The notes under the pieces are model-generated. The model did not search any database, had not been told where the DNA came from, and was given only the letters and a program-made list of their open reading frames with translations. Position numbers and translations under genes: made by a program. A stretch of 64,000 nucleotides of DNA from positions 18,244,931 through 18,308,930 of the forward strand of contig CAIIXF020000003.1 of the NCBI GenBank assembly GCA_903813345.2. The letters run 5' to 3'. Shown here in pieces: positions 9,965-43,460 of the stretch. Every line of letters starts with the position of its first letter. Positions within the stretch are counted from its first letter, which is position 1. Source of the DNA: Owenia fusiformis. Its lineage: Eukaryota > Annelida > Polychaeta > Sabellida > Oweniidae.

Positions 9965-10072
9965 TTTCTGTACACACGTTCTCATCAACGAGAGAAATCT
10001 GGATAAATCTACTCATACACGTTGTTAGGGGGCTAGGCGTAGTTGGTGGGAAATTAGGTCAAATCCCGATCT

Positions 10073-10085: not shown

Positions 10086-10154
10086 AAATCTAGGTCGAAA
10101 TCTGCATTTCCGCTATTTTGGCCTCTCGAGCCTCCTTAAGAAGTCAAAATCGGA

Positions 10155-10186
10155 GGAAAACTAGCTGGTCGGAAAGACAGTTTTCC
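10155..10186. other. Second stem-loop in sat714 unit
   Basis: GGAAAACT (10155-10162) pairs with AGTTTTCC (10179-10186) across a 16-base loop. CGG and CCG further out could extend it past an AG bulge. It repeats every 714 bp. Function unknown. Confidence 0.5.
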
Positions 10187-19100: not shown

Positions 19101-22100
19101 CATTCTCCCCAACTACCTCCCTAGATTCCCCGTCCTTTAATCGACCATTATAGGCCCTCAGAGCGTCCGTAGAGCCATTTCCCTCTATACGCGTATGGCC
19201 GAATCCTATTATAATTTTTGCTTTTGTATGTGCAAAAGCAAAAATTTTTCTGTACACACGTTCTCATCAACGAGAGAAATCTGGATAAATCTACTCATAC
19301 ACGTTGTTAGGGGGCTAGGCGTAGTTGGTGGGAAATTAGGTCAAATCCCGATCTGGGTCAAAGGTCGAAATCTAGGTCGAAATCTGCATTTCCGCTATTT
19401 TGGCCTCTCGAGCCTCCTTAAGAAGTCAAAATCGGAGGAAAACTAGCTGGTCGGAAAGACAGTTTTCCGAGCATTAAAAAAACAGTGAACCAAATTGAAA
19501 TCCGACCATTAGTTATCGAGATATACGCGTTTGAAGTTCGCGTACGGGCCACCGTTGCCGTATATCTAGACGGCACGAATACACTTGGTATACGTATCTC
19601 TGCGAACAACAGACATTTGAAAGAAAATAGGCCCGAACGATGACTAGAGCATTTCTAAAACAACGATTCCCTTCGTCAAACTAACGATTGCGGAATGTAG
19701 AACGACGCGTACGCTGCTCGAATCTACGTCGAAAGCTCTATATAGACGTCTGGAAGGCCTATTTTTTGAAGGACTATTTTTTGACCTCGACGGATCCGCG
19801 AAGCACGAGCCAGGCATTCTCCCCAACTACCTCCCTAGATTCCCCGTCCTTTAATCGACCATTATAGGCCCTCAGAGCGTCCGTAGAGCCATTTCCCTCT
19901 ATACGCGTATGGCCGAATCCTATTATAATTTTTGCTTTTGTATGTGCAAAAGCAAAAATTTTTCTGTACACACGTTCTCATCAACGAGAGAAATCTGGAT
20001 AAATCTACTCATACACGTTGTTAGGGGGCTAGGCGTAGTTGGTGGGAAATTAGGTCAAATCCCGATCTGGGTCAAAGGTCGAAATCTAGGTCGAAATCTG
20101 CATTTCCGCTATTTTGGCCTCTCGAGCCTCCTTAAGAAGTCAAAATCGGAGGAAAACTAGCTGGTCGGAAAGACAGTTTTCCGAGCATTAAAAAAACAGT
20201 GAACCAAATTGAAATCCGACCATTAGTTATCGAGATATACGCGTTTGAAGTTCGCGTACGGGCCACCGTTGCCGTATATCTAGACGGCACGAATACACTT
20301 GGTATACGTATCTCTGCGAACAACAGACATTTGAAAGAAAATAGGCCCGAACGATGACTAGAGCATTTCTAAAACAACGATTCCCTTCGTCAAACTAACG
20401 ATTGCGGAATGTAGAACGACGCGTACGCTGCTCGAATCTACGTCGAAAGCTCTATATAGACGTCTGGAAGGCCTATTTTTTGAAGGACTATTTTTTGACC
20501 TCGACGGATCCGCGAAGCACGAGCCAGGCATTCTCCCCAACTACCTCCCTAGATTCCCCGTCCTTTAATCGACCATTATAGGCCCTCAGAGCGTCCGTAG
20601 AGCCATTTCCCTCTATACGCGTATGGCCGAATCCTATTATAATTTTTGCTTTTGTATGTGCAAAAGCAAAAATTTTTCTGTACACACGTTCTCATCAACG
20701 AGAGAAATCTGGATAAATCTACTCATACACGTTGTTAGGGGGCTAGGCGTAGTTGGTGGGAAATTAGGTCAAATCCCGATCTGGGTCAAAGGTCGAAATC
20801 TAGGTCGAAATCTGCATTTCCGCTATTTTGGCCTCTCGAGCCTCCTTAAGAAGTCAAAATCGGAGGAAAACTAGCTGGTCGGAAAGACAGTTTTCCGAGC
20901 ATTAAAAAAACAGTGAACCAAATTGAAATCCGACCATTAGTTATCGAGATATACGCGTTTGAAGTTCGCGTACGGGCCACCGTTGCCGTATATCTAGACG
21001 GCACGAATACACTTGGTATACGTATCTCTGCGAACAACAGACATTTGAAAGAAAATAGGCCCGAACGATGACTAGAGCATTTCTAAAACAACGATTCCCT
21101 TCGTCAAACTAACGATTGCGGAATGTAGAACGACGCGTACGCTGCTCGAATCTACGTCGAAAGCTCTATATAGACGTCTGGAAGGCCTATTTTTTGAAGG
21201 ACTATTTTTTGACCTCGACGGATCCGCGAAGCACGAGCCAGGCATTCTCCCCAACTACCTCCCTAGATTCCCCGTCCTTTAATCGACCATTATAGGCCCT
21301 CAGAGCGTCCGTAGAGCCATTTCCCTCTATACGCGTATGGCCGAATCCTATTATAATTTTTGCTTTTGTATGTGCAAAAGCAAAAATTTTTCTGTACACA
21401 CGTTCTCATCAACGAGAGAAATCTGGATAAATCTACTCATACACGTTGTTAGGGGGCTAGGCGTAGTTGGTGGGAAATTAGGTCAAATCCCGATCTGGGT
21501 CAAAGGTCGAAATCTAGGTCGAAATCTGCATTTCCGCTATTTTGGCCTCTCGAGCCTCCTTAAGAAGTCAAAATCGGAGGAAAACTAGCTGGTCGGAAAG
21601 ACAGTTTTCCGAGCATTAAAAAAACAGTGAACCAAATTGAAATCCGACCATTAGTTATCGAGATATACGCGTTTGAAGTTCGCGTACGGGCCACCGTTGC
21701 CGTATATCTAGACGGCACGAATACACTTGGTATACGTATCTCTGCGAACAACAGACATTTGAAAGAAAATAGGCCCGAACGATGACTAGAGCATTTCTAA
21801 AACAACGATTCCCTTCGTCAAACTAACGATTGCGGAATGTAGAACGACGCGTACGCTGCTCGAATCTACGTCGAAAGCTCTATATAGACGTCTGGAAGGC
21901 CTATTTTTTGAAGGACTATTTTTTGACCTCGACGGATCCGCGAAGCACGAGCCAGGCATTCTCCCCAACTACCTCCCTAGATTCCCCGTCCTTTAATCGA
22001 CCATTATAGGCCCTCAGAGCGTCCGTAGAGCCATTTCCCTCTATACGCGTATGGCCGAATCCTATTATAATTTTTGCTTTTGTATGTGCAAAAGCAAAAA

Positions 22101-23009
22101 TTTTTCTGTACACACGTTCTCATCAACGAGAGAAATCTGGATAAATCTACTCATACACGTTGTTAGGGGGCTAGGCGTAGTTGGTGGGAAATTAGGTCAA
22201 ATCCCGATCTGGGTCAAAGGTCGAAATCTAGGTCGAAATCTGCATTTCCGCTATTTTGGCCTCTCGAGCCTCCTTAAGAAGTCAAAATCGGAGGAAAACT
22301 AGCTGGTCGGAAAGACAGTTTTCCGAGCATTAAAAAAACAGTGAACCAAATTGAAATCCGACCATTAGTTATCGAGATATACGCGTTTGAAGTTCGCGTA
22401 CGGGCCACCGTTGCCGTATATCTAGACGGCACGAATACACTTGGTATACGTATCTCTGCGAACAACAGACATTTGAAAGAAAATAGGCCCGAACGATGAC
22501 TAGAGCATTTCTAAAACAACGATTCCCTTCGTCAAACTAACGATTGCGGAATGTAGAACGACGCGTACGCTGCTCGAATCTACGTCGAAAGCTCTATATA
22601 GACGTCTGGAAGGCCTATTTTTTGAAGGACTATTTTTTGACCTCGACGGATCCGCGAAGCACGAGCCAGGCATTCTCCCCAACTACCTCCCTAGATTCCC
22701 CGTCCTTTAATCGACCATTATAGGCCCTCAGAGCGTCCGTAGAGCCATTTCCCTCTATACGCGTATGGCCGAATCCTATTATTAGACTCCAGATTTCATC
22801 TGGAGTCTATTGCTTTTGCCAGTTTTCTTATTATTAGACTCCAGATGAAAATCTGGAGTCTATTGCTTTTGCCAGTTTTCTTATTATTATTATTATTATT
22901 CTTTCTTTGCCAGTTTTCTCAGCAACTAGAAGGACTTACTAAAATCTGCTAACATAGTCAGCTGGGTAATGAGACCTAGTTTCTGGGAAATTAGGTCAAA
23001 TGTTTATCT

Positions 23010-23022
23010 AGGTCAAAGGTCA
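23010..23022 (+). promoter_or_regulatory. DR1 motif in nested HLE-A
   Basis: Perfect AGGTCAAAGGTCA in the 5' domain. Equivalent sites in the host elements are at 24744-24756 and 27421-27433, with duplicate copies at 38837-38849 and 41514-41526. Confidence 0.4.
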
Positions 23023-24566
23023 AGAACTAGGTCAAATCGTGTGTTTTCACTATTTTACAAGTTTTCTCAGTCGTCCTTCGGTATTTTTGCTCCGGGTTTT
23101 TTTCATCATGTTCCTTAGAAAAAAAGCTAATTCCGCAAGGCAAATCGTTTTTTGATTACTCTTACCGATTTTGAGATATGGCGTCCAAAAAGTAGGTCAG
23201 AACATAAAAAGTTCTCCAAAGTCAACGTGTGAGTTATCAAATAAGTGTAGAATTATCTCAGGAATCCGAATCTGCAAACAAAAATTTGATCCGACATCCC
23301 GTTCGGAAGTTATAGCCTTTTGAAATCTCAAAAATCGGTAAATTTGGTGCCTATGTTAAGTCAATGGGAAAAAAGACTTTTTCGAAGTGTAAAATACAAG
23401 ATGTAGACTGAGTACAGCTTAACATAATGAATGCTTATAAAACAAGGGGACCTCAAAAGCTACATAGCTTCAAAATTTGGACACCAAAATGCCTAGGTCA
23501 AAATCTAGGTCAAATTCATAGTTTTTCCTTATTTTTACGATTCTGACACTACACTTTAATAATTTGCTTCAAAATTTTGTATACAGGTAGCAAAGAGTGT
23601 GCTCATAGTGTTAGCCTTTTGCCGTCAGAAAGTATTTTTACCCACTTTTGAGATATGGTGTCCGTAAAGTAGGTCAAAATAAAAAGTTCTCCAGATCCAA
23701 CGTATGAGTTATGAATTAAGGGTAGAATTTTCTCAGGAATCCGAATCTGCAAACTAAATTTCGATCCGACTTCCGGTTCGGAAGTTATGACGTGTCCAAA
23801 AAGTAGGTCAAAATAAAAAATTTCCAAATTTAACGTATGAGTTATGAATTAGGGGTAAAATTTTGTCAGGAATCTGAATCTGCAAATTAAATTTCGATCC
23901 GACTTCCGGTTCGAAAGTTATGGCGTTTTGAAAGCTCAAAAGTCGCTAAATTTGGTGCCCCATGTTATGTCAATGAGAAAAAGGATTTTTTGAAGTGTAA
24001 AATACCAGATATAGACTGAGTACAGCTTAATATTCTGAAAGCCTATAAAAGGAGGGGACCTCGTAGGCTATCTAGCTTTAAAATTTGGACGCAAAAATGC
24101 CTTGGTCAAAATCTAGGTCAAATTCATAGTTTTTCCTTATTTTTGCGATTCTGACATTACACTTTAAGGATTTGCTTAAAAATTTTGTATACAGGTAGCA
24201 AAGAGTGTGCTTATAGTGTTAGCCTTCTGCCGTCAGAAAGTTTTTTGACCCACTTTTGAGATATGGTGTCCGAAATGTAGGTCAAAATAAAAAATTCTCC
24301 AAATTTAATGTATGAGTTATGAATTAAGGGTAGAATTTTCTCAGGAATCAGAATCTTTAAATCAAATTTCGAACTTACTTCTGGTAAGATAGGTATAGCG
24401 GTTTGAAGTCTCGAAAAGTCGATATGATGATATCCCCATGTTAAGCTAATAGAGTCGAAGATAGCCTTCTTAAAAGTTGTCTAAATGTCTATATTCTAGC
24501 TGACTCAGCTTATTTTGAATGACTCGGCTTACAAGTTCTGGATGACTCAGCTTAAACAAAGTTTAA

Positions 24567-24608
24567 ATCTGGAGTCTTAAATTGAACTTGTTCAATTTAC
24601 ATGTCTAG
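24567..24608 (+). other. 3' terminus of nested HLE-A
   Basis: ATCTGGAGTCT (24567-24577), the AAATTGAAC/GTTCAATTT hairpin, ACATG and TCTAG (24604-24608). The host TTA tract resumes at 24609. The 5' flank is A (22833) and the 3' flank is T, the A^T context of canonical Helitrons. Confidence 0.85.
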
Positions 24609-27288
24609 TTATTATTATTATTATTATTATTTTTCTTTCTTTCCGCGTTTTCTCAGCAACTAGAGGGACTTCCTAAAATCTGCTAACATAGTCAACTAGG
24701 TAATGAGTTCTAGTTTCTGGGAAATTAGGTCAAATGTTTATCTAGGTCAAAGGTCAAGAACTAGGTCAAATCGTCTCTTTTTGCTATTTCACAAGTTTTC
24801 TCAGTCGTCCTTTGGTATTTTCGCTCCGGGTTTTTTTCATCATGTTCCTTAGAAAAAAAGCTAATTCCGTAAGGCAAACCGTTTTTTGATTACTCTTACC
24901 GATTTTGAGATATGGCGTCCAAAAAGTAGGTCAGAACATAAAAAATTCTCCAAATTCAACGTGTGAATTATCAAATAAGTGTAGAATTATCTCAGGAATC
25001 CGAATCTGCAAACCAAATTTTGATCCGACTTCCGGTTCGGAAGTTATAGCGTTTTGAAATCTCAAAAATCGCTAAATTTGGTGCCCATGTTAAGTCAATG
25101 GGAAAAAAGGCTTTTTCGAAGTGTAAAATACAAGATATAGACTGAGTTCAGCTAAACATATTGAATGCCTATAAAAGAAGGGGACATCAAAAGCTACATA
25201 GCTTCGAAATTTGGACACCAAAATGCCTAGGTCAAAATCTAGGTCAAATTCATAGTTTTTCCTTATTTTTGCGATTCTGGCACTACACTTTTAGGATTTG
25301 CTTCAAAATTTTGTATACAGGTAGCAAAGAGTGTGCTAATAGTGAGAGCCTTTTGCCGTCAGAAAGTATTTTGACCCACTTTTGAGATATGGTGTCCGTA
25401 AAGTAGGTCAAAATAAAAATTTCTCATAATTTAACTTATGAGTTATGAATTAAGGGTAGAATTTTCTCAGGAATCCGAATCTGCAAACCAAATTTCAATC
25501 CGACTTTTCGTTGGGAAGTTATGGCGTTTTGAAAGCTCAAAAATCGCTAATTTTGGTGCCCCATGTTATGTCAATGAGAAAAAAGATTCTTTTGAAGTGT
25601 AAAATACCAGATAAAGACTGAGTACAGCTTAAGATTCTGAAAGTCTATAAAAGAAGGGGACCTCGAAGGCTATCTAGCTTTAAAATTTGGACACCAAAAT
25701 CCCTAGGTCAAAATCTAGGTCAAATACATAGTTTTTCCTTATTTTTGCGATTCTGGCACTACACTTTTAGGATTTGCTTCAAAATTTTGTATACAGGTAG
25801 CAAAGAGTGGGCTTATAGTGTTAGCCTTTTGCCGTCAGAGAGTATTTTGACCCACTTTTGAGATATGGTGTCCGAAAAGTAGGTCAAAATAAAAAATTCT
25901 CCAAATTTTACATATGAGTTATGAATTAAGAGTAGAATTTTCTCAGGAATCCGAATCTGCAAACCAAATTTCGATCCGACTTCCGGTTCCAAAGTTATGG
26001 CGTGTCCGAAAAGTAGGTCAAAATAAAAATTCGCCAAATTTAACGTATGAGTTATGAATAAGGGGTAGAATTTTGTCAGGAATTCGAATCTTTAAATCAA
26101 ATTTCGATCCGACTTCCGGTTTGAAAGTTATGGCGTTTTGAAATTTCGAGAAAAATCGATCTGATGTTATCCTGAAAGTCAAGGAAAAAAGATTTTTTTG
26201 AAGTGTAAAATACGAGATATAGATTGAGTACACCTTTAGATAATGAATTCCTATAAAAGAAGGGGACCTCAAAAGCTACCTAGTTTCAATATTTGGACAC
26301 AAAAATGCCTAGGTCAAAATCTAGGTCAAATTCATAGTTTTTCCTTATTTTTGCGATTCTGGCACTACACTTTTAGGATTTGCTTCAAAAATTTGTATAC
26401 AGGTAGCAAAGAGTGTGCTAATAGTGTTAGCCTTTTGCCGTCAGAGAGTATTTTGACCCACTTTTGAGATATGGTGTCCGAAAAGTAGGTCAAAATAAAA
26501 GTTCTCCGAATTTAGCATATGAGTTATGAAATAAGGATAGAATTTTCTGAGGAATCTGAATCTGCAAACCAAATTTCGATCCGACTTTCTGTTTGAAAGT
26601 AATAGCGTTTTGAAAGCTCAAAAATTGCTAAATTTGGTGCCCCATGTTATGTCAATAGGGAAAAAGATTTTTTTGAAGTCTAAAATACCAGATATAGACT
26701 GAGTACAGCTTAACATTCTGAAAGCCTTTAAAAGAAGGGGACCTCGAAGGCTATCTAGCTTTAAAATTTGGACACCAAAATGCCAAGGTCAAAATCTAGG
26801 GCAAATTCATAATTTTCCTTATTTTTGCGATTCTGACATTACACTTTAATGATTTGCTTCGAAATTTTGTATACAGGTAGCAAAGAGTGTGCTTATAGTG
26901 ATAGCCTTTTGCCGTCAGAAAGTATTTTGACCCACTTTTGAGATATGGTGTCCAAAAAGTAGGTCAAAATAAAAAAATCTCCAAATTTAATGTATGAGTT
27001 ATGAATTAAGGGTAGAATTTTCTCAGGAGTCCGAATCTTTAAACCAAAATACAATCTAACTTCTGGTTAGATAGGTATAGCGGTTTGAAGTCTCGAAAAG
27101 TCGCTATGATGATATCCCCATGTTAAGCCAATGGAGTCGAAGATAAAAAATGGAGAGTTGTCTAAATTCTAGCTGACTCGATCAGCTTATTCTGGATGAC
27201 TCAGCTTACAAGTATTCTGGATGACTCAGCTTAAAAAAAGAATTAAATCTGGAGTCTTAAATTGAACTTGTTCAATTTACATGTCTAG
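24609..27288 (+). mobile_element. HLE-A host element, body (leader at 22782-22833)
   Basis: Remainder of the host interrupted by the nested copy: TTA/TTTC tract, TTTCCGCG, 5' domain with DR1, four core units (anchors near 25261, 25737, 26343 and 26817), a TGACTCAG-box region near 27190-27235, and the 3' terminus ATCTGGAGTCT (27247) to TCTAG (27284-27288). Core spacing alternates between about 475 and 606 bp. The longer form carries an extra ~130-bp segment ending in a second GAATTAGGGG-type block. Confidence 0.75.
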
Positions 27289-29367
27289 TTATTATTATTA
27301 TTATTATTTTTCTTTCTTTGCCAGTTTTCTCAGCTACTAGAAGGACTTACTAAAATCTGCTAACATAGTCAGCTGGGTAATGAGACCTAGTTTCTGGGAA
27401 ATTAGGTCAAATGTTTATCTAGGTCAAAGGTCAAGAACTAGGTCAAATCGTGTGTTTTCACTATTTTACAAGTTTTCTCAGTCGTCCTTCGGTATTTTGG
27501 CTCCGGGTTTTTTTCATCATGTTCCTTAGAAAAAAAGCTAATTCCGTAAGGCAAATCGTTTTTTGATTACTCCTACCGATTTTGAGATATGGCGTCCGAA
27601 AAGTAGGTCAGAACATAAAAAGTTCTCCAAAGTCAACGTGTGAGTTATCAAATAAGTGTAGAATTATCTCAGGAATCCGAATCTGCAAACAAAAATCTGA
27701 TCCGACATCCGGTTCGGAAGTTATAGCCTTTTGAAATCTCAAAAATCGCTAAATTTGGTGCCTATGTTAAGTCAATGGGAAAAAAGACTTTTTCGAAGTG
27801 TAAAATACAAGATGTAGACTGAGTACAGCTTAACATAATGAATGCTTATAAAACAAGGAGACCTCAAAAGCTACATAGCTTCAAAATTTGGACACCAAAA
27901 TGCCTAGGTCAAAATCTAGGTCAAATTCATAGTTTTTCCTTATTTTTGCGATTCTGGCACTACACTTTTAGGATTTGCTTCAAAATTTTGTATACAGGTA
28001 GCAAAGAGTGTGCTAATAGTGTTAGCCTTTTGCCGTCAAAAAGTATTTTGACCCACTTTTGAGATATGGTGTCCGTAAAGTAGGTCAAAATAAAAATTTC
28101 TCATAATTTAACTTATGAGTTATGAATTAAGGGTAGAATTTTCTCAGGAATCCGAATCTGCAAACCAAATTTCAATCCGACTTTTCGTTGGGAAGTTATG
28201 GCGTTTTGAAAGCTTTAAAATCGCTAATTTTGGTGCCCCATGTTATGTCAATGAGAAAAAAGATTTTTTTGAAGTGTAAAATACCAGATAAAGACTGAGT
28301 ACAGCTTAAGATTCTGAAAGTCTATAAAAGAAGGGGACCTCGAAGGCTATCTAGCTTTAAAATTTGGACACCAAAATCCCTAGGTCAAAATCTAGGTCAA
28401 ATACATAGTTTTTCCTTATTTTTGCGATTCTGGCACTACACCTTTAGGATTTGCTTCAAAATTTTGTATACAGGTAGCAAAGAGTGGGCTTATAGTGTTA
28501 GCCTTTTGCCGTCAGAGAGTATTTTGACCCACTTTTGAGATATGGTGTCCGAAAAGTAGGTCAAAATAAAAGTTCTCCGAATTTAGCATATGAGTTATGA
28601 AATAAGGATAGAATTTTCTGAGGAATCTGAATCTGCAAACCAAATTTCGATCCGACTTTCTGTTTGAAAGTTATAGCGTTTTGAAAGCTCAAAAATTGCT
28701 AAATTTGGTGCCCCATGTTATGTCAATAGGGAAAAAGATTTTTTTGAAGTCTAAAAGACCAAATATAGACTGAGTACAGCTTAACATTCTGAAAGCCTTT
28801 AAAAGAAGGGGACTTCGAAGGCTATCTAGCTTTAAAATTTGGACACCAAAATGCCAAGGTCAAAATCTAGGGCAAATTCATAATTTTCCTTATTTTTGCG
28901 ATTCTGACATTACACTTTAATGATTTGCTTCGAAATTTTGTATACAGGTAGCAAAGAGTGTGCTTATAGTGATAGCCTTTTGCCGTCAGAAAGTATTTTG
29001 ACCCACTTTTGAGATATGGTGTCCAAAAAGTAGGTCAAAATAAAAAATCTCCAAATTTAATGTATGAGTTATGAATTAAGGGTAGAATTTTCTCAGGAGT
29101 CCGAATCTTTAAACCAAAATACAATCTAACTTCTGGTTAGATAGTTATAGCGGTTTGAAGTCTCGAAAAGTCGATATGATGATATCCCCATGTTAAGCCA
29201 ATGGAGTCGAAGATAAAAAATGGAGAGTTGTCTAAATGTCTAAATTCTAGCTGACTCGATCAGCTTATTCTGGATGACTCAGCTTACAAGTATTCTGGAT
29301 GACTCAGCTTAAAAAAAAGAATTAAATCTGGAGTCTTAAATTGAACTTGTTCAATTTACATGTCTAG
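27289..29367 (+). mobile_element. HLE-A element without its 5' leader
   Basis: Starts at the TTA/TTTC tract directly after a TCTAG end. It has a 5' domain very similar to that of the nested element (CTTTGCCAGTTTTCTCAGC), three core units (anchors near 27938, 28414 and 28888) and the 3' terminus at 29326-29367. The final TCTAG abuts the first unit of sat714 array 2. The missing leader probably collapsed with the near-identical leader at 22782. Alternatively, read-through past the first 3' end made a two-ended transposon. Confidence 0.7.
29326..29367 (+). other. 3' terminus of composite HLE-A, copy 1
   Basis: ATCTGGAGTCT (29326-29336), hairpin, TCTAG (29363-29367), then sat714. The duplicate terminus is at 43419-43460. 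The internal terminus at 27247-27288 has its duplicate at 41340-41381. Confidence 0.8.
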
Positions 29368-32300
29368 TAATTTTTGCTTTTGTATGTGCAAAAGCAAAAA
29401 TTTTTCTGTACACACGTTCTCATCAACGAGAGAAATCTGGATAAATCTACTCATACACGTTGTTAGGGGGCTAGGCGTAGTTGGTGGGAAATTAGGTCAA
29501 ATCCCGATCTGGGTCAAAGGTCGAAATCTAGGTCGAAATCTGCATTTCCGCTATTTTGGCCTCTCGAGCCTCCTTAAGAAGTCAAAATCGGAGGAAAACT
29601 AGCTGGTCGGAAAGACAGTTTTCCGAGCATTAAAAAAACAGTGAACCAAATTGAAATCCGACCATTAGTTATCGAGATATACGCGTTTGAAGTTCGCGTA
29701 CGGGCCACCGTTGCCGTATATCTAGACGGCACGAATACACTTGGTATACGTATCTCTGCGAACAACAGACATTTGAAAGAAAATAGGCCCGAACGATGAC
29801 TAGAGCATTTCTAAAACAACGATTCCCTTCGTCAAACTAACGATTGCGGAATGTAGAACGACGCGTACGCTGCTCGAATCTACGTCGAAAGCTCTATATA
29901 GACGTCTGGAAGGCCTATTTTTTGAAGGACTATTTTTTGACCTCGACGGATCCGCGAAGCACGAGCCAGGCATTCTCCCCAACTACCTCCCTAGATTCCC
30001 CGTCCTTTAATCGACCATTATAGGCCCTCAGAGCGTCCGTAGAGCCATTTCCCTCTATACGCGTATGGCCGAATCCTATTATAATTTTTGCTTTTGTATG
30101 TGCAAAAGCAAAAATTTTTCTGTACACACGTTCTCATCAACGAGAGAAATCTGGATAAATCTACTCATACACGTTGTTAGGGGGCTAGGCGTAGTTGGTG
30201 GGAAATTAGGTCAAATCCCGATCTGGGTCAAAGGTCGAAATCTAGGTCGAAATCTGCATTTCCGCTATTTTGGCCTCTCGAGCCTCCTTAAGAAGTCAAA
30301 ATCGGAGGAAAACTAGCTGGTCGGAAAGACAGTTTTCCGAGCATTAAAAAAACAGTGAACCAAATTGAAATCCGACCATTAGTTATCGAGATATACGCGT
30401 TTGAAGTTCGCGTACGGGCCACCGTTGCCGTATATCTAGACGGCACGAATACACTTGGTATACGTATCTCTGCGAACAACAGACATTTGAAAGAAAATAG
30501 GCCCGAACGATGACTAGAGCATTTCTAAAACAACGATTCCCTTCGTCAAACTAACGATTGCGGAATGTAGAACGACGCGTACGCTGCTCGAATCTACGTC
30601 GAAAGCTCTATATAGACGTCTGGAAGGCCTATTTTTTGAAGGACTATTTTTTGACCTCGACGGATCCGCGAAGCACGAGCCAGGCATTCTCCCCAACTAC
30701 CTCCCTAGATTCCCCGTCCTTTAATCGACCATTATAGGCCCTCAGAGCGTCCGTAGAGCCATTTCCCTCTATACGCGTATGGCCGAATCCTATTATAATT
30801 TTTGCTTTTGTATGTGCAAAAGCAAAAATTTTTCTGTACACACGTTCTCATCAACGAGAGAAATCTGGATAAATCTACTCATACACGTTGTTAGGGGGCT
30901 AGGCGTAGTTGGTGGGAAATTAGGTCAAATCCCGATCTGGGTCAAAGGTCGAAATCTAGGTCGAAATCTGCATTTCCGCTATTTTGGCCTCTCGAGCCTC
31001 CTTAAGAAGTCAAAATCGGAGGAAAACTAGCTGGTCGGAAAGACAGTTTTCCGAGCATTAAAAAAACAGTGAACCAAATTGAAATCCGACCATTAGTTAT
31101 CGAGATATACGCGTTTGAAGTTCGCGTACGGGCCACCGTTGCCGTATATCTAGACGGCACGAATACACTTGGTATACGTATCTCTGCGAACAACAGACAT
31201 TTGAAAGAAAATAGGCCCGAACGATGACTAGAGCATTTCTAAAACAACGATTCCCTTCGTCAAACTAACGATTGCGGAATGTAGAACGACGCGTACGCTG
31301 CTCGAATCTACGTCGAAAGCTCTATATAGACGTCTGGAAGGCCTATTTTTTGAAGGACTATTTTTTGACCTCGACGGATCCGCGAAGCACGAGCCAGGCA
31401 TTCTCCCCAACTACCTCCCTAGATTCCCCGTCCTTTAATCGACCATTATAGGCCCTCAGAGCGTCCGTAGAGCCATTTCCCTCTATACGCGTATGGCCGA
31501 ATCCTATTATAATTTTTGCTTTTGTATGTGCAAAAGCAAAAATTTTTCTGTACACACGTTCTCATCAACGAGAGAAATCTGGATAAATCTACTCATACAC
31601 GTTGTTAGGGGGCTAGGCGTAGTTGGTGGGAAATTAGGTCAAATCCCGATCTGGGTCAAAGGTCGAAATCTAGGTCGAAATCTGCATTTCCGCTATTTTG
31701 GCCTCTCGAGCCTCCTTAAGAAGTCAAAATCGGAGGAAAACTAGCTGGTCGGAAAGACAGTTTTCCGAGCATTAAAAAAACAGTGAACCAAATTGAAATC
31801 CGACCATTAGTTATCGAGATATACGCGTTTGAAGTTCGCGTACGGGCCACCGTTGCCGTATATCTAGACGGCACGAATACACTTGGTATACGTATCTCTG
31901 CGAACAACAGACATTTGAAAGAAAATAGGCCCGAACGATGACTAGAGCATTTCTAAAACAACGATTCCCTTCGTCAAACTAACGATTGCGGAATGTAGAA
32001 CGACGCGTACGCTGCTCGAATCTACGTCGAAAGCTCTATATAGACGTCTGGAAGGCCTATTTTTTGAAGGACTATTTTTTGACCTCGACGGATCCGCGAA
32101 GCACGAGCCAGGCATTCTCCCCAACTACCTCCCTAGATTCCCCGTCCTTTAATCGACCATTATAGGCCCTCAGAGCGTCCGTAGAGCCATTTCCCTCTAT
32201 ACGCGTATGGCCGAATCCTATTATAATTTTTGCTTTTGTATGTGCAAAAGCAAAAATTTTTCTGTACACACGTTCTCATCAACGAGAGAAATCTGGATAA

Positions 32301-35300
32301 ATCTACTCATACACGTTGTTAGGGGGCTAGGCGTAGTTGGTGGGAAATTAGGTCAAATCCCGATCTGGGTCAAAGGTCGAAATCTAGGTCGAAATCTGCA
32401 TTTCCGCTATTTTGGCCTCTCGAGCCTCCTTAAGAAGTCAAAATCGGAGGAAAACTAGCTGGTCGGAAAGACAGTTTTCCGAGCATTAAAAAAACAGTGA
32501 ACCAAATTGAAATCCGACCATTAGTTATCGAGATATACGCGTTTGAAGTTCGCGTACGGGCCACCGTTGCCGTATATCTAGACGGCACGAATACACTTGG
32601 TATACGTATCTCTGCGAACAACAGACATTTGAAAGAAAATAGGCCCGAACGATGACTAGAGCATTTCTAAAACAACGATTCCCTTCGTCAAACTAACGAT
32701 TGCGGAATGTAGAACGACGCGTACGCTGCTCGAATCTACGTCGAAAGCTCTATATAGACGTCTGGAAGGCCTATTTTTTGAAGGACTATTTTTTGACCTC
32801 GACGGATCCGCGAAGCACGAGCCAGGCATTCTCCCCAACTACCTCCCTAGATTCCCCGTCCTTTAATCGACCATTATAGGCCCTCAGAGCGTCCGTAGAG
32901 CCATTTCCCTCTATACGCGTATGGCCGAATCCTATTATAATTTTTGCTTTTGTATGTGCAAAAGCAAAAATTTTTCTGTACACACGTTCTCATCAACGAG
33001 AGAAATCTGGATAAATCTACTCATACACGTTGTTAGGGGGCTAGGCGTAGTTGGTGGGAAATTAGGTCAAATCCCGATCTGGGTCAAAGGTCGAAATCTA
33101 GGTCGAAATCTGCATTTCCGCTATTTTGGCCTCTCGAGCCTCCTTAAGAAGTCAAAATCGGAGGAAAACTAGCTGGTCGGAAAGACAGTTTTCCGAGCAT
33201 TAAAAAAACAGTGAACCAAATTGAAATCCGACCATTAGTTATCGAGATATACGCGTTTGAAGTTCGCGTACGGGCCACCGTTGCCGTATATCTAGACGGC
33301 ACGAATACACTTGGTATACGTATCTCTGCGAACAACAGACATTTGAAAGAAAATAGGCCCGAACGATGACTAGAGCATTTCTAAAACAACGATTCCCTTC
33401 GTCAAACTAACGATTGCGGAATGTAGAACGACGCGTACGCTGCTCGAATCTACGTCGAAAGCTCTATATAGACGTCTGGAAGGCCTATTTTTTGAAGGAC
33501 TATTTTTTGACCTCGACGGATCCGCGAAGCACGAGCCAGGCATTCTCCCCAACTACCTCCCTAGATTCCCCGTCCTTTAATCGACCATTATAGGCCCTCA
33601 GAGCGTCCGTAGAGCCATTTCCCTCTATACGCGTATGGCCGAATCCTATTATAATTTTTGCTTTTGTATGTGCAAAAGCAAAAATTTTTCTGTACACACG
33701 TTCTCATCAACGAGAGAAATCTGGATAAATCTACTCATACACGTTGTTAGGGGGCTAGGCGTAGTTGGTGGGAAATTAGGTCAAATCCCGATCTGGGTCA
33801 AAGGTCGAAATCTAGGTCGAAATCTGCATTTCCGCTATTTTGGCCTCTCGAGCCTCCTTAAGAAGTCAAAATCGGAGGAAAACTAGCTGGTCGGAAAGAC
33901 AGTTTTCCGAGCATTAAAAAAACAGTGAACCAAATTGAAATCCGACCATTAGTTATCGAGATATACGCGTTTGAAGTTCGCGTACGGGCCACCGTTGCCG
34001 TATATCTAGACGGCACGAATACACTTGGTATACGTATCTCTGCGAACAACAGACATTTGAAAGAAAATAGGCCCGAACGATGACTAGAGCATTTCTAAAA
34101 CAACGATTCCCTTCGTCAAACTAACGATTGCGGAATGTAGAACGACGCGTACGCTGCTCGAATCTACGTCGAAAGCTCTATATAGACGTCTGGAAGGCCT
34201 ATTTTTTGAAGGACTATTTTTTGACCTCGACGGATCCGCGAAGCACGAGCCAGGCATTCTCCCCAACTACCTCCCTAGATTCCCCGTCCTTTAATCGACC
34301 ATTATAGGCCCTCAGAGCGTCCGTAGAGCCATTTCCCTCTATACGCGTATGGCCGAATCCTATTATAATTTTTGCTTTTGTATGTGCAAAAGCAAAAATT
34401 TTTCTGTACACACGTTCTCATCAACGAGAGAAATCTGGATAAATCTACTCATACACGTTGTTAGGGGGCTAGGCGTAGTTGGTGGGAAATTAGGTCAAAT
34501 CCCGATCTGGGTCAAAGGTCGAAATCTAGGTCGAAATCTGCATTTCCGCTATTTTGGCCTCTCGAGCCTCCTTAAGAAGTCAAAATCGGAGGAAAACTAG
34601 CTGGTCGGAAAGACAGTTTTCCGAGCATTAAAAAAACAGTGAACCAAATTGAAATCCGACCATTAGTTATCGAGATATACGCGTTTGAAGTTCGCGTACG
34701 GGCCACCGTTGCCGTATATCTAGACGGCACGAATACACTTGGTATACGTATCTCTGCGAACAACAGACATTTGAAAGAAAATAGGCCCGAACGATGACTA
34801 GAGCATTTCTAAAACAACGATTCCCTTCGTCAAACTAACGATTGCGGAATGTAGAACGACGCGTACGCTGCTCGAATCTACGTCGAAAGCTCTATATAGA
34901 CGTCTGGAAGGCCTATTTTTTGAAGGACTATTTTTTGACCTCGACGGATCCGCGAAGCACGAGCCAGGCATTCTCCCCAACTACCTCCCTAGATTCCCCG
35001 TCCTTTAATCGACCATTATAGGCCCTCAGAGCGTCCGTAGAGCCATTTCCCTCTATACGCGTATGGCCGAATCCTATTATAATTTTTGCTTTTGTATGTG
35101 CAAAAGCAAAAATTTTTCTGTACACACGTTCTCATCAACGAGAGAAATCTGGATAAATCTACTCATACACGTTGTTAGGGGGCTAGGCGTAGTTGGTGGG
35201 AAATTAGGTCAAATCCCGATCTGGGTCAAAGGTCGAAATCTAGGTCGAAATCTGCATTTCCGCTATTTTGGCCTCTCGAGCCTCCTTAAGAAGTCAAAAT

Positions 35301-38300
35301 CGGAGGAAAACTAGCTGGTCGGAAAGACAGTTTTCCGAGCATTAAAAAAACAGTGAACCAAATTGAAATCCGACCATTAGTTATCGAGATATACGCGTTT
35401 GAAGTTCGCGTACGGGCCACCGTTGCCGTATATCTAGACGGCACGAATACACTTGGTATACGTATCTCTGCGAACAACAGACATTTGAAAGAAAATAGGC
35501 CCGAACGATGACTAGAGCATTTCTAAAACAACGATTCCCTTCGTCAAACTAACGATTGCGGAATGTAGAACGACGCGTACGCTGCTCGAATCTACGTCGA
35601 AAGCTCTATATAGACGTCTGGAAGGCCTATTTTTTGAAGGACTATTTTTTGACCTCGACGGATCCGCGAAGCACGAGCCAGGCATTCTCCCCAACTACCT
35701 CCCTAGATTCCCCGTCCTTTAATCGACCATTATAGGCCCTCAGAGCGTCCGTAGAGCCATTTCCCTCTATACGCGTATGGCCGAATCCTATTATAATTTT
35801 TGCTTTTGTATGTGCAAAAGCAAAAATTTTTCTGTACACACGTTCTCATCAACGAGAGAAATCTGGATAAATCTACTCATACACGTTGTTAGGGGGCTAG
35901 GCGTAGTTGGTGGGAAATTAGGTCAAATCCCGATCTGGGTCAAAGGTCGAAATCTAGGTCGAAATCTGCATTTCCGCTATTTTGGCCTCTCGAGCCTCCT
36001 TAAGAAGTCAAAATCGGAGGAAAACTAGCTGGTCGGAAAGACAGTTTTCCGAGCATTAAAAAAACAGTGAACCAAATTGAAATCCGACCATTAGTTATCG
36101 AGATATACGCGTTTGAAGTTCGCGTACGGGCCACCGTTGCCGTATATCTAGACGGCACGAATACACTTGGTATACGTATCTCTGCGAACAACAGACATTT
36201 GAAAGAAAATAGGCCCGAACGATGACTAGAGCATTTCTAAAACAACGATTCCCTTCGTCAAACTAACGATTGCGGAATGTAGAACGACGCGTACGCTGCT
36301 CGAATCTACGTCGAAAGCTCTATATAGACGTCTGGAAGGCCTATTTTTTGAAGGACTATTTTTTGACCTCGACGGATCCGCGAAGCACGAGCCAGGCATT
36401 CTCCCCAACTACCTCCCTAGATTCCCCGTCCTTTAATCGACCATTATAGGCCCTCAGAGCGTCCGTAGAGCCATTTCCCTCTATACGCGTATGGCCGAAT
36501 CCTATTATAATTTTTGCTTTTGTATGTGCAAAAGCAAAAATTTTTCTGTACACACGTTCTCATCAACGAGAGAAATCTGGATAAATCTACTCATACACGT
36601 TGTTAGGGGGCTAGGCGTAGTTGGTGGGAAATTAGGTCAAATCCCGATCTGGGTCAAAGGTCGAAATCTAGGTCGAAATCTGCATTTCCGCTATTTTGGC
36701 CTCTCGAGCCTCCTTAAGAAGTCAAAATCGGAGGAAAACTAGCTGGTCGGAAAGACAGTTTTCCGAGCATTAAAAAAACAGTGAACCAAATTGAAATCCG
36801 ACCATTAGTTATCGAGATATACGCGTTTGAAGTTCGCGTACGGGCCACCGTTGCCGTATATCTAGACGGCACGAATACACTTGGTATACGTATCTCTGCG
36901 AACAACAGACATTTGAAAGAAAATAGGCCCGAACGATGACTAGAGCATTTCTAAAACAACGATTCCCTTCGTCAAACTAACGATTGCGGAATGTAGAACG
37001 ACGCGTACGCTGCTCGAATCTACGTCGAAAGCTCTATATAGACGTCTGGAAGGCCTATTTTTTGAAGGACTATTTTTTGACCTCGACGGATCCGCGAAGC
37101 ACGAGCCAGGCATTCTCCCCAACTACCTCCCTAGATTCCCCGTCCTTTAATCGACCATTATAGGCCCTCAGAGCGTCCGTAGAGCCATTTCCCTCTATAC
37201 GCGTATGGCCGAATCCTATTATAATTTTTGCTTTTGTATGTGCAAAAGCAAAAATTTTTCTGTACACACGTTCTCATCAACGAGAGAAATCTGGATAAAT
37301 CTACTCATACACGTTGTTAGGGGGCTAGGCGTAGTTGGTGGGAAATTAGGTCAAATCCCGATCTGGGTCAAAGGTCGAAATCTAGGTCGAAATCTGCATT
37401 TCCGCTATTTTGGCCTCTCGAGCCTCCTTAAGAAGTCAAAATCGGAGGAAAACTAGCTGGTCGGAAAGACAGTTTTCCGAGCATTAAAAAAACAGTGAAC
37501 CAAATTGAAATCCGACCATTAGTTATCGAGATATACGCGTTTGAAGTTCGCGTACGGGCCACCGTTGCCGTATATCTAGACGGCACGAATACACTTGGTA
37601 TACGTATCTCTGCGAACAACAGACATTTGAAAGAAAATAGGCCCGAACGATGACTAGAGCATTTCTAAAACAACGATTCCCTTCGTCAAACTAACGATTG
37701 CGGAATGTAGAACGACGCGTACGCTGCTCGAATCTACGTCGAAAGCTCTATATAGACGTCTGGAAGGCCTATTTTTTGAAGGACTATTTTTTGACCTCGA
37801 CGGATCCGCGAAGCACGAGCCAGGCATTCTCCCCAACTACCTCCCTAGATTCCCCGTCCTTTAATCGACCATTATAGGCCCTCAGAGCGTCCGTAGAGCC
37901 ATTTCCCTCTATACGCGTATGGCCGAATCCTATTATAATTTTTGCTTTTGTATGTGCAAAAGCAAAAATTTTTCTGTACACACGTTCTCATCAACGAGAG
38001 AAATCTGGATAAATCTACTCATACACGTTGTTAGGGGGCTAGGCGTAGTTGGTGGGAAATTAGGTCAAATCCCGATCTGGGTCAAAGGTCGAAATCTAGG
38101 TCGAAATCTGCATTTCCGCTATTTTGGCCTCTCGAGCCTCCTTAAGAAGTCAAAATCGGAGGAAAACTAGCTGGTCGGAAAGACAGTTTTCCGAGCATTA
38201 AAAAAACAGTGAACCAAATTGAAATCCGACCATTAGTTATCGAGATATACGCGTTTGAAGTTCGCGTACGGGCCACCGTTGCCGTATATCTAGACGGCAC

Positions 38301-38649
38301 GAATACACTTGGTATACGTATCTCTGCGAACAACAGACATTTGAAAGAAAATAGGCCCGAACGATGACTAGAGCATTTCTAAAACAACGATTCCCTTCGT
38401 CAAACTAACGATTGCGGAATGTAGAACGACGCGTACGCTGCTCGAATCTACGTCGAAAGCTCTATATAGACGTCTGGAAGGCCTATTTTTTGAAGGACTA
38501 TTTTTTGACCTCGACGGATCCGCGAAGCACGAGCCAGGCATTCTCCCCAACTACCTCCCTAGATTCCCCGTCCTTTAATCGACCATTATAGGCCCTCAGA
38601 GCGTCCGTAGAGCCATTTCCCTCTATACGCGTATGGCCGAATCCTATTA
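29368..38649 (+). repeat. sat714 array 2 (13 units)
   Basis: 9,282 bp, exactly 13 x 714 bp, in the same orientation and phase as array 1. Units begin at 29368 + 714k. Translated frames are identical to array 1 in every complete unit. Both borders are HLE-A ends, at the same position within the unit as the right border of array 1. Confidence 0.95.
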
Positions 38650-41381
38650 TTAGACTCCAGATTTCATCTGGAGTCTATTGCTTTTGCCAGTTTTCTTATT
38701 ATTATTATTATTATTATTATTATTTTTCTTTCTTTCCGCGTTTTCTCAGCAACTAGAGGGACTTCCTAAAATCTGCTAACATAGTCAACTAGGTAATGAG
38801 TTCTAGTTTCTGGGAAATTAGGTCAAATGTTTATCTAGGTCAAAGGTCAAGAACTAGGTCAAATCGTCTCTTTTTGCTATTTCACAAGTTTTCTCAGTCG
38901 TCCTTTGGTATTTTCGCTCCGGGTTTTTTTCATCATGTTCCTTAGAAAAAAAGCTAATTCCGTAAGGCAAACCGTTTTTTGATTACTCTTACCGATTTTG
39001 AGATATGGCGTCCAAAAAGTAGGTCAGAACATAAAAAATTCTCCAAATTCAACGTGTGAATTATCAAATAAGTGTAGAATTATCTCAGGAATCCGAATCT
39101 GCAAACCAAATTTTGATCCGACTTCCGGTTCGGAAGTTATAGCGTTTTGAAATCTCAAAAATCGCTAAATTTGGTGCCCATGTTAAGTCAATGGGAAAAA
39201 AGGCTTTTTCGAAGTGTAAAATACAAGATATAGACTGAGTTCAGCTAAACATATTGAATGCCTATAAAAGAAGGGGACATCAAAAGCTACATAGCTTCGA
39301 AATTTGGACACCAAAATGCCTAGGTCAAAATCTAGGTCAAATTCATAGTTTTTCCTTATTTTTGCGATTCTGGCACTACACTTTTAGGATTTGCTTCAAA
39401 ATTTTGTATACAGGTAGCAAAGAGTGTGCTAATAGTGAGAGCCTTTTGCCGTCAGAAAGTATTTTGACCCACTTTTGAGATATGGTGTCCGTAAAGTAGG
39501 TCAAAATAAAAATTTCTCATAATTTAACTTATGAGTTATGAATTAAGGGTAGAATTTTCTCAGGAATCCGAATCTGCAAACCAAATTTCAATCCGACTTT
39601 TCGTTGGGAAGTTATGGCGTTTTGAAAGCTCAAAAATCGCTAATTTTGGTGCCCCATGTTATGTCAATGAGAAAAAAGATTCTTTTGAAGTGTAAAATAC
39701 CAGATAAAGACTGAGTACAGCTTAAGATTCTGAAAGTCTATAAAAGAAGGGGACCTCGAAGGCTATCTAGCTTTAAAATTTGGACACCAAAATCCCTAGG
39801 TCAAAATCTAGGTCAAATACATAGTTTTTCCTTATTTTTGCGATTCTGGCACTACACTTTTAGGATTTGCTTCAAAATTTTGTATACAGGTAGCAAAGAG
39901 TGGGCTTATAGTGTTAGCCTTTTGCCGTCAGAGAGTATTTTGACCCACTTTTGAGATATGGTGTCCGAAAAGTAGGTCAAAATAAAAAATTCTCCAAATT
40001 TTACATATGAGTTATGAATTAAGAGTAGAATTTTCTCAGGAATCCGAATCTGCAAACCAAATTTCGATCCGACTTCCGGTTCCAAAGTTATGGCGTGTCC
40101 GAAAAGTAGGTCAAAATAAAAATTCGCCAAATTTAACGTATGAGTTATGAATAAGGGGTAGAATTTTGTCAGGAATTCGAATCTTTAAATCAAATTTCGA
40201 TCCGACTTCCGGTTTGAAAGTTATGGCGTTTTGAAATTTCGAGAAAAATCGATCTGATGTTATCCTGAAAGTCAAGGAAAAAAGATTTTTTTGAAGTGTA
40301 AAATACGAGATATAGATTGAGTACACCTTTAGATAATGAATTCCTATAAAAGAAGGGGACCTCAAAAGCTACCTAGTTTCAATATTTGGACACAAAAATG
40401 CCTAGGTCAAAATCTAGGTCAAATTCATAGTTTTTCCTTATTTTTGCGATTCTGGCACTACACTTTTAGGATTTGCTTCAAAAATTTGTATACAGGTAGC
40501 AAAGAGTGTGCTAATAGTGTTAGCCTTTTGCCGTCAGAGAGTATTTTGACCCACTTTTGAGATATGGTGTCCGAAAAGTAGGTCAAAATAAAAGTTCTCC
40601 GAATTTAGCATATGAGTTATGAAATAAGGATAGAATTTTCTGAGGAATCTGAATCTGCAAACCAAATTTCGATCCGACTTTCTGTTTGAAAGTAATAGCG
40701 TTTTGAAAGCTCAAAAATTGCTAAATTTGGTGCCCCATGTTATGTCAATAGGGAAAAAGATTTTTTTGAAGTCTAAAATACCAGATATAGACTGAGTACA
40801 GCTTAACATTCTGAAAGCCTTTAAAAGAAGGGGACCTCGAAGGCTATCTAGCTTTAAAATTTGGACACCAAAATGCCAAGGTCAAAATCTAGGGCAAATT
40901 CATAATTTTCCTTATTTTTGCGATTCTGACATTACACTTTAATGATTTGCTTCGAAATTTTGTATACAGGTAGCAAAGAGTGTGCTTATAGTGATAGCCT
41001 TTTGCCGTCAGAAAGTATTTTGACCCACTTTTGAGATATGGTGTCCAAAAAGTAGGTCAAAATAAAAAAATCTCCAAATTTAATGTATGAGTTATGAATT
41101 AAGGGTAGAATTTTCTCAGGAGTCCGAATCTTTAAACCAAAATACAATCTAACTTCTGGTTAGATAGGTATAGCGGTTTGAAGTCTCGAAAAGTCGCTAT
41201 GATGATATCCCCATGTTAAGCCAATGGAGTCGAAGATAAAAAATGGAGAGTTGTCTAAATTCTAGCTGACTCGATCAGCTTATTCTGGATGACTCAGCTT
41301 ACAAGTATTCTGGATGACTCAGCTTAAAAAAAGAATTAAATCTGGAGTCTTAAATTGAACTTGTTCAATTTACATGTCTAG
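38650..41381 (+). mobile_element. HLE-A host element, uninterrupted (empty site)
   Basis: 2,732-bp complete element. It has a leader with TTC-loop hairpin (38651-38677), nine TTA units (38696-38722), TTTCTTTCCGCG, the 5' domain with DR1 (38837-38849), four core units, and the terminus ATCTGGAGTCT (41340) to TCTAG (41377-41381). It is the same element as 22782-22833 plus 24609-27288, but without the 1,775-bp nested copy. Confidence 0.85.
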
Positions 41382-43460
41382 TTATTATTATTATTATTAT
41401 TTTTCTTTCTTTGCCAGTTTTCTCAGCTACTAGAAGGACTTACTAAAATCTGCTAACATAGTCAGCTGGGTAATGAGACCTAGTTTCTGGGAAATTAGGT
41501 CAAATGTTTATCTAGGTCAAAGGTCAAGAACTAGGTCAAATCGTGTGTTTTCACTATTTTACAAGTTTTCTCAGTCGTCCTTCGGTATTTTGGCTCCGGG
41601 TTTTTTTCATCATGTTCCTTAGAAAAAAAGCTAATTCCGTAAGGCAAATCGTTTTTTGATTACTCCTACCGATTTTGAGATATGGCGTCCGAAAAGTAGG
41701 TCAGAACATAAAAAGTTCTCCAAAGTCAACGTGTGAGTTATCAAATAAGTGTAGAATTATCTCAGGAATCCGAATCTGCAAACAAAAATCTGATCCGACA
41801 TCCGGTTCGGAAGTTATAGCCTTTTGAAATCTCAAAAATCGCTAAATTTGGTGCCTATGTTAAGTCAATGGGAAAAAAGACTTTTTCGAAGTGTAAAATA
41901 CAAGATGTAGACTGAGTACAGCTTAACATAATGAATGCTTATAAAACAAGGAGACCTCAAAAGCTACATAGCTTCAAAATTTGGACACCAAAATGCCTAG
42001 GTCAAAATCTAGGTCAAATTCATAGTTTTTCCTTATTTTTGCGATTCTGGCACTACACTTTTAGGATTTGCTTCAAAATTTTGTATACAGGTAGCAAAGA
42101 GTGTGCTAATAGTGTTAGCCTTTTGCCGTCAAAAAGTATTTTGACCCACTTTTGAGATATGGTGTCCGTAAAGTAGGTCAAAATAAAAATTTCTCATAAT
42201 TTAACTTATGAGTTATGAATTAAGGGTAGAATTTTCTCAGGAATCCGAATCTGCAAACCAAATTTCAATCCGACTTTTCGTTGGGAAGTTATGGCGTTTT
42301 GAAAGCTTTAAAATCGCTAATTTTGGTGCCCCATGTTATGTCAATGAGAAAAAAGATTTTTTTGAAGTGTAAAATACCAGATAAAGACTGAGTACAGCTT
42401 AAGATTCTGAAAGTCTATAAAAGAAGGGGACCTCGAAGGCTATCTAGCTTTAAAATTTGGACACCAAAATCCCTAGGTCAAAATCTAGGTCAAATACATA
42501 GTTTTTCCTTATTTTTGCGATTCTGGCACTACACCTTTAGGATTTGCTTCAAAATTTTGTATACAGGTAGCAAAGAGTGGGCTTATAGTGTTAGCCTTTT
42601 GCCGTCAGAGAGTATTTTGACCCACTTTTGAGATATGGTGTCCGAAAAGTAGGTCAAAATAAAAGTTCTCCGAATTTAGCATATGAGTTATGAAATAAGG
42701 ATAGAATTTTCTGAGGAATCTGAATCTGCAAACCAAATTTCGATCCGACTTTCTGTTTGAAAGTTATAGCGTTTTGAAAGCTCAAAAATTGCTAAATTTG
42801 GTGCCCCATGTTATGTCAATAGGGAAAAAGATTTTTTTGAAGTCTAAAAGACCAAATATAGACTGAGTACAGCTTAACATTCTGAAAGCCTTTAAAAGAA
42901 GGGGACTTCGAAGGCTATCTAGCTTTAAAATTTGGACACCAAAATGCCAAGGTCAAAATCTAGGGCAAATTCATAATTTTCCTTATTTTTGCGATTCTGA
43001 CATTACACTTTAATGATTTGCTTCGAAATTTTGTATACAGGTAGCAAAGAGTGTGCTTATAGTGATAGCCTTTTGCCGTCAGAAAGTATTTTGACCCACT
43101 TTTGAGATATGGTGTCCAAAAAGTAGGTCAAAATAAAAAATCTCCAAATTTAATGTATGAGTTATGAATTAAGGGTAGAATTTTCTCAGGAGTCCGAATC
43201 TTTAAACCAAAATACAATCTAACTTCTGGTTAGATAGTTATAGCGGTTTGAAGTCTCGAAAAGTCGATATGATGATATCCCCATGTTAAGCCAATGGAGT
43301 CGAAGATAAAAAATGGAGAGTTGTCTAAATGTCTAAATTCTAGCTGACTCGATCAGCTTATTCTGGATGACTCAGCTTACAAGTATTCTGGATGACTCAG
43401 CTTAAAAAAAAGAATTAAATCTGGAGTCTTAAATTGAACTTGTTCAATTTACATGTCTAG
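38702..43460 (+). repeat. 4,759-bp duplicated block, copy 2
   Basis: Second copy of 24609-29367. With the preceding leader it forms a composite of 4,811 bp (38650-43460). Composite plus array 2 gives the 14,093-bp repeat distance. No third copy is seen: array 3 runs through the expected position near 52743 without interruption. Confidence 0.9.
41382..43460 (+). mobile_element. HLE-A element without leader, copy 2
   Basis: Duplicate of 27289-29367: TTA/TTTC tract, 5' domain with DR1 (41514-41526), three core units and 3' terminus 43419-43460 with TCTAG at 43456-43460. Because the leader is absent in both copies, its loss or the read-through event predates the 14-kb duplication. Confidence 0.7.

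Follow-up and report, generated by a model that had tools for sequence, protein, structure and literature searches.

The 64-kb stretch of the Owenia fusiformis genome analysed here (hereafter the window; C3:18244931-18308930, from a 498-Mb assembly of 525 contigs that was searched as an intron-bearing genome) contains two copies of a composite repeat, one of which carries an additional 1,775 bp within a TTA microsatellite. What is this additional DNA, and was it gained by one composite or lost by the other? We propose, with a probability of roughly 85%, that positions 22834-24608 represent a non-autonomous rolling-circle transposon of the Helitron2/Helentron type, similar to the HINE elements, which was gained by the composite at 22782 after the duplication of the surrounding block and which belongs to a family whose copies can nest in one another's (TTA)n tracts. 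Comparison of the available copies establishes, at the level of sequence, the ends and the anatomy of the element, its joins between A and T (to within one base), the absence of a target duplication at the examined sites, the existence of near-identical copies and the recurrent presence of copies in the (TTA)n tract just inside the 5' hairpin of other family members.

Filled and empty composites

The element interrupted by the insert is referred to as the host. The parts of the two composites are as follows:

22834-24608, + strand: inserted element of 1,775 bp, TTAGACTCC...TCTAG, without a long open frame (gap against 38650-43460; borders taken from outside sites, to within one base)
22836-22861, + strand: 5' hairpin of the insert, formed by an 11-bp inverted repeat and its complement (from the sequence; the fold was measured on the host 5' end only)
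22881-22898, + strand: the insert's own (TTA)6, occupying the position that is the landing site in other copies (sequence and flank survey)
24567-24577, + strand: 3' subterminal inverted repeat ATCTGGAGTCT, the exact complement of AGACTCCAGAT (sequence)
24578-24599, + strand: 3' hairpin with a 9-bp stem, 9 nucleotides from the 3' end (DNA fold)
22782-22833, + strand: part of the host preceding the insert, with the 5' end and two TTA units (pair alignment)
24609-27288, + strand: remainder of the host, with seven TTA units, tandem-repeat body and tail (pair alignment, tail mapping)
27289-29367, + strand: body and tail of a second element in series, for which no 5' end of its own was found (tail at 29367)
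38650-41381, + strand: empty host with an uninterrupted (TTA)9 (pair alignment)
41382-43460, + strand: in the empty composite, the element body and tail that follow the host (tail mapping)

Alignment of the filled composite (22782-29367, 6,586 bp) with the empty one (38650-43460, 4,811 bp) yields a single clean 1,775-bp gap and no other difference, exactly the difference in length that the first-pass annotation of this DNA had claimed. Its reading of the host tract as nine TTA units split into two plus seven also holds, with (TTA)9 at 38696-38722 facing 2 + 7 units around 22834-24608. The host body is the same in the filled and the empty copy across 2,637 bp (0 differences), and the flanks of the composites are identical over 9,282 bp on the left and 9,283 bp on the right, both limits being the end of a run of 13 x 714 bp; the surrounding block is thus free of scattered differences, as had been stated from the points compared earlier. 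Both composites lie at the same phase of the 714-bp unit, inside a nearly uniform satellite array, and each contains two element bodies in series but one host 5' end (tails at 27288 and 29367, and at 41381 and 43460).

The window pair by itself does not show gain rather than loss, and it does not fix the borders of the insert. The two composites share a prefix of 55 bp and a suffix of 4,759 bp that overlap by three bases, and the placement of the gap is ambiguous by 3 nucleotides (TTA). Within a TTA tract, a 1,772-bp element accompanied by a 3-bp TTA duplication would look identical, so that sites outside the pair are needed to define the borders. The earlier statement that no base was duplicated is therefore unreadable from the pair itself, but the empty sites found elsewhere agree with it.

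Borders and target of the element

The left border was assessed from 100 listed of 767 matches to the 5' end: TTA precedes GACTCC in all 100, and the base before that TTA is A in 99. A second type of 5' loop (100 listed of 347 matches, all read as reverse-strand 5' ends) has TT at the free positions in 100 of 100; its pattern fixes the A and leaves only TT free, so it was used for the TT count alone. On the right, the triplet after CTAG was read in 100 listed of 432 matches and is TTA in 85, the others being TTT (5), TTC (3), TAA (3), TGA (3) and TTG (1), where TAA and TGA together are six satellite sites; T directly follows CTAG in all 100. The difference in invariance between the left and the right TTA is significant (Fisher p = 3.5e-5; 1.2e-3 when the six satellite sites are left out), with the qualification that the listed 5' ends are often stacked copies and the rows are not fully independent. 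Since the left TTA is invariant and the right TTA is variable, the left one belongs to the element.

Empty sites of other kinds lead to the same borders. One copy with a single 5' end and a single tail (C5:30779) is inserted in a dispersed repeat; 38 further loci match its joined flanks with an alignment that spans the junction. Among 20 of these 38 that were fetched, two equal the joined flanks CCTTA|TTTTT and none has an extra TTA, while the remaining ones vary at or near the T-run. Pairwise scores without extra letters are better in 5, equal in 3 and worse in 12 of the 20, the latter aligning better with three extra letters that correspond to longer T-runs, and do not decide; the decision against a duplication rests on the letters, because 0 of 20 carry the A of an extra TTA. 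The empty satellite site, CCTATTA|TAATTT, has no duplication either, and the 714-bp unit contains a single TWATWA site, which is the insertion point. The genome search for more copies and their empty sites that had been suggested at first pass thus found both, and filled and empty states of the family can be compared at sites of several kinds. These data favour an element with the putative borders TTAGACTCC...TCTAG, joined between A and T, with TWA^TTA as the preferred target, as the first-pass annotation had it for the A^T insertion and the CTAG end; the element and the right flank both start with T, so a shift of the borders by one base is possible.

Anatomy and classification

From 5' to 3', the element consists of an 11-bp inverted repeat that pairs with downstream bases, a (TTA)n tract about 45 bp in, tandem repeats (with periods of 133 and 476 in the family), a 3' inverted repeat, a hairpin and CTAG. 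This is the plan of Helitron2 and HINE elements, as given in the relevant parts of their descriptions (PMC3627910, PMC4067079, PMC7492417). The host 5' end (38650-38685), which is of the same kind as that of the insert, folds at -11 kcal/mol (z -9.3), a value that 0 of 200 shuffles reached. Compared with shuffled sequences, the 3' hairpin is weak: for the insert the DNA fold has -5.2 kcal/mol, z -2.4 and 4 of 200 shuffles as good, and with other flanks (43410-43460) z -1.6 and 15 of 200. No closed stop-to-stop frame of at least 150 amino acids is listed in the 64-kb window, and the RNA family search of the window returned no family at threshold.

Compared with the canonical Helitron (Helitron1), the element has the CTRR-type 3' end (...TCTAG) after a hairpin 9 nucleotides from the end, with the weakness just mentioned, and the A^T insertion without target duplication, to within one base. 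However, it starts with TTAG in 100 of 100 listed ends rather than with TC, and it possesses both the 5' hairpin (folded on the host copy) and the asymmetric inverted repeats that Helitron1 lacks. The 8-15 bp asymmetric inverted repeats and two end hairpins of Helitron2 are present (AGACTCCAGAT / ATCTGGAGTCT), and so are the structural features of HINEs: identical subterminal inverted repeats (11 bp or longer), a 3' hairpin, a microsatellite and a non-coding body. The TT-dinucleotide target of Helentrons and HINEs is absent, with A before 99 of 100 and T after 100 of 100 listed ends. The ends agree with those of proto-Helentrons (5' TT, 3' CTAG, A^T, no target duplication). No single class fits on every test; judged by these features, we classify the element as a non-autonomous, HINE-like rolling-circle variant of the Helitron2/Helentron type. 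The initial label "Helitron-like" therefore stands as far as the rolling-circle ends are concerned, but not in the sense of a canonical Helitron.

Known systems illustrate the mixture. HINE or Helentron-associated elements including DINE-1, in the part of the source that treats them (PMC4067079), share with the present family the subterminal inverted repeats (11 bp or more), two end hairpins, a microsatellite, tandem repeats, the non-coding character and the lack of target duplication; they prefer a TT dinucleotide, whereas here the join is A^T, the 3' end is CTAG, and the eight Rep copies scanned include no Helentron with these ends. The proto-Helentron-Pi of Phytophthora infestans, as outlined in the same source, has 5' TT, 3' CTAG, A/T insertion and no target duplication in common with our element, but it is a coding element of ~14 kb with Helitron-like ends, while ours is non-coding and has asymmetric inverted repeats and a 5' hairpin. 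Helitron2, in the relevant portion of its description (Bao and Jurka, PMC3627910), has the same 8-15 bp asymmetric inverted repeats, the 5' one folding with downstream bases and the 3' one located just upstream of the 3' hairpin; the Chlamydomonas representatives insert after TTTT, in contrast to TWA^TTA. Cg_HINE of the Pacific oyster is likewise built of a left module, which holds an inverted repeat and a microsatellite, of satellite-like tandem repeats and of a right module with a hairpin; the pertinent part of its description (PMC7492417) gives a TT target and describes no use of the microsatellite as a target, unlike the A^T joins in (TTA)n observed here. Proto-Helentron-like ends (TT...CTAG, A^T) on a HINE-like body thus blur the published split between Helitron1, Helitron2 and Helentrons.

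Candidate Rep-helicase partners

A non-autonomous element of this kind would require a Rep-helicase supplied in trans, which would recognise the hairpins and the asymmetric inverted repeats; a single-stranded or circular intermediate might then be joined into TWA^TTA. Rep-domain matches in the genome number about 60 (58 listed, 35 of them in open frames of at least 2,000 amino acids) and were sorted by identity into five clades, a grouping of our own. One Rep frame, read over 3,247 amino acids, comprises OTU, Rep, PIF1 and endonuclease domains, the domain set ascribed to Helentrons in the part of PMC4067079 that concerns them. The search for a Rep-helicase with the same ends, also suggested at first pass, found none in eight Rep copies of the ~60 matches whose text was scanned (on C5, C1, C6, C2 and C38 from clades 1-2, and one each from clades 3-5; the C38 copy is a near-duplicate of the C5 copy), and a further copy, on C505, showed no element ends on the one side scanned. 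The string GACTCCAGA in the clade-5 copy was considered as an element end and rejected, as it lies within the coding frame and has no palindrome. Clade-3 Rep elements have a 5' end of ATGTCACCACC, hairpin and ATTGTTATGG, and a 3' end of GGTGGTGACAT and hairpin, i.e. the same plan in other letters, which we count in favour of the proposed type.

Among other features of the Rep loci, the clade-3 coding element in L043 (C11) has its 5' end tandemly doubled at about 325-430. In L037, positions 266-2348, upstream of a clade-3 Rep-helicase frame, contain tandem repeats 77-85% identical to the repeats at 3500-7999 of the window (best 40 of 176 matches). The open frame at 161-9901 of L005 (C5) includes OTU, a Herpes_teg_N match, DUF6570, Rep, PIF1 and endonuclease, and its relatives, more than 85% identical in the Rep piece, are found on many small contigs.

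Nesting in the (TTA)n tract

The 151-bp right flanks of the first 40 listed tails, all on C1, were compared with 43 library segments in the same orientation only. Seventeen of them lie in the tract behind the 5' hairpin of another copy, 5 beside another 5' end, and 18 in neither. At C1 60,778,996-60,791,965, six 5' ends and six tails (exact or near-exact) are listed, and their order is consistent with a nest. With every copy a new (TTA)n target arrives at the same position of the element, so that copies can nest, which produces stacked 5' ends followed by serial tails. It is tempting to suggest, at somewhat less than even odds, that the element carries its own landing pad, i.e. that the (TTA)n just inside the 5' hairpin is preferred by its siblings, and that the nests grow, accumulate stacked 5' ends, are mobilised as composites and either colonise satellite arrays or give rise to them via the one matching site per unit. 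In FoHeli of Fusarium oxysporum, which shares the asymmetric inverted repeats, the AT-rich target and the stacked 5' ends, the stacking was attributed to self-insertion; the part of that study dealing with it reports one nested case (PMC5148889), while copies of the present family repeatedly land in an internal microsatellite.

The strongest competing explanation, although in our opinion an unlikely one, is that nesting does not reflect targeting and that a few composites multiplied by block duplication and moved as units, so that the tract only seems preferred. The composites in the window, on C147 and on C1 are indeed related, and Fusarium composites with several 5' ends were proposed, in the same part of PMC5148889, to move as one unit. 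However, the library elements matched by the 17 nested right flanks (at 75-100% identity) are different ones, and the element bodies within the C1 nest are 91-94% identical to the query, unlike one recent copy. Microsatellite self-targeting, if true, would account for the stacked 5' ends, for the tails in series and for the association of rolling-circle elements with satellite arrays. Our literature searches returned no title about a Helitron that targets its own internal microsatellite, by which we do not claim its absence from print. A lepidopteran Helitron-like element reportedly disrupts (GAAA)n microsatellites, to judge by the title of a 2010 report of Coates et al.; the likeness lies in the microsatellite target.

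Gain or loss

Family tails number 681 genome-wide with at most one mismatch, against 0 for the reversed-pattern control. The insert has nine other copies at 99-100% identity among 28 scored candidates; the copies on C1, C147 and at C3:18319.8k differ from it by 3, 4 and 6 bases per 1,772, respectively, in addition to one or two indels. The inserts have diverged less than their hosts (4/1772 vs 21/2636, p = 0.013; 3/1772 vs 11/1149, p = 0.004). One old insertion would give equal divergence of both, so the inequality speaks for gain, though gene conversion could produce it as well. The filled host has an empty host as its nearest relative in both pairs, with 0/2637 differences for the window and 1/2650 for C147 (support 100/99), and the filled copies do not group in the host tree, in which 5 of 8 inner forks are weak.

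It is improbable, in our estimate, that the filled state is the older one and that 38650 lost the insert by recombination between the flanking TTA runs, with no recent transposition in the block. The TTA runs make such a deletion easy, and filled composites contiguous over both junctions exist on C1 (98.9%, 3,227 bp) and C147 (98.4%, 5,237 bp). On the other hand, apart from the host relationships and divergences above, the unit counts are kept in both pairs (9 = 2 + 7 in the window; 8 vs 1 + 7 on C147, with 2 differences in 3,016 bp right of the tract), which slippage would achieve only by chance. Moreover, uninterrupted hosts are common: among 40 places scored out of 2,429 candidates, a biased sample, 17 (counting that of the window) have an unbroken host 5' junction, while in 23, which were not each inspected, the match starts in the tract. 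The TTTC 5' loop of the C1 host was considered as a rare marker and dropped, since it is present in 7 of 8 fetched empty hosts; this common loop and the extra 5' end on C147 (see below) pull in opposite directions and leave the odds of gain and loss unchanged. Gain at 22782 thus appears the better reading than loss at 38650: the block would have been duplicated first, and the insert gained afterwards. The first-pass annotation had drawn this order, and recent activity, from the window pair, which alone gives no direction; it is the 99-100% identical copies and the comparisons above that favour it.

Two further explanations fare worse. A mis-joining of one composite from near-identical repeats is conceivable in an almost uniform, assembler-error-prone array, but seems very unlikely, given a diverged filled/empty pair with a different split on another contig and three substitutions of the insert that the C1, C147 and C3:18319.8k copies lack. 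PIF/Harbinger transposons generate a 3-bp TWA target duplication and have terminal inverted repeats at both ends, and a cut-and-paste element of this sort, with the borders GACTCC...CTAG and a duplicated TTA, would account for the TTA on both sides of most copies (among 20 isolated C1 copies, right TTA in 19/20 loci and left TTA in 9/9 where a 5' end was found), but we reject it as hardly credible on the asymmetry between the constant left and the altered right TTA (15/100), the satellite and dispersed-repeat sites without duplication, and the inverted repeat that is not terminal at the 3' end.

Our overall proposal, a HINE-like element gained at 22782, also has evidence to contend with. Besides the lack of its ends in the scanned Rep copies, the weak 3' hairpin, the missing TT target and the 12 empty dispersed repeats that, owing to their longer T-runs, align better with three extra letters, the filled copy on C147 has three 5' ends before that of the insert, compared to two in the empty copy, and is not a clean one-gap pair. 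In addition, both C1 and C147 harbour filled relatives of the host, of which the one on C1 is likewise split after two TTA units, so that one older insertion followed by loss retains some probability, and the counted insertions are not independent events, as composites can be copied whole.

Satellite array and neighbouring repeats

The surroundings of the composites comprise:

8101-9929, + strand: further copy of the family, 1,829 bp, bordered on the left by the 5' end of a second family and on the right by the 714-bp array (end mapping)
9930-22781, + strand: 714-bp satellite array, 18 units (repeat analysis)
29368-38649, + strand: 714-bp satellite array, 13 units (repeat analysis, flank identity)
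43461-64000, + strand: 714-bp satellite array, to the window end (repeat analysis)

When the array is cut in steps of 714, 47 of 59 units are identical; the remaining 12 are found from position 54,885 onwards, in a part whose phase is displaced by indels. As the element boundary coincides with the one TWATWA site in the unit, the shared phase of the composites follows from the target preference. The unit starts with a strong 35-bp palindrome (z -7.6), and an 81-bp stretch, of which the palindrome forms the first 35 bp, is 80% identical to the element body; the 714-bp satellite may itself descend from such an element. Relatives of the satellite at 97-98% identity occur on C6, C7, C8, C12, C14 and C291 (8 of 542 candidates scored). 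At 54712-56139, adjoining steps measure 712 and 715 bp in an array that is otherwise regular at 714.

The second family has the same plan (AGGAGGCCC...GGGCCTCCT hairpin, tail ...GTCTAG), with 5' ends from 5276 and 8052 and tails ending at 5261 and 8047; the element at 8101-9929 sits just inside one of its 5' ends. At least 7 tails of this family were found genome-wide on one exact pattern, all followed by TT, the window's own tails not being among them. Finally, (TACTTACTCAGC)n minisatellites are present at 3164-3378 and 9700-9877, shortly upstream of element tails.

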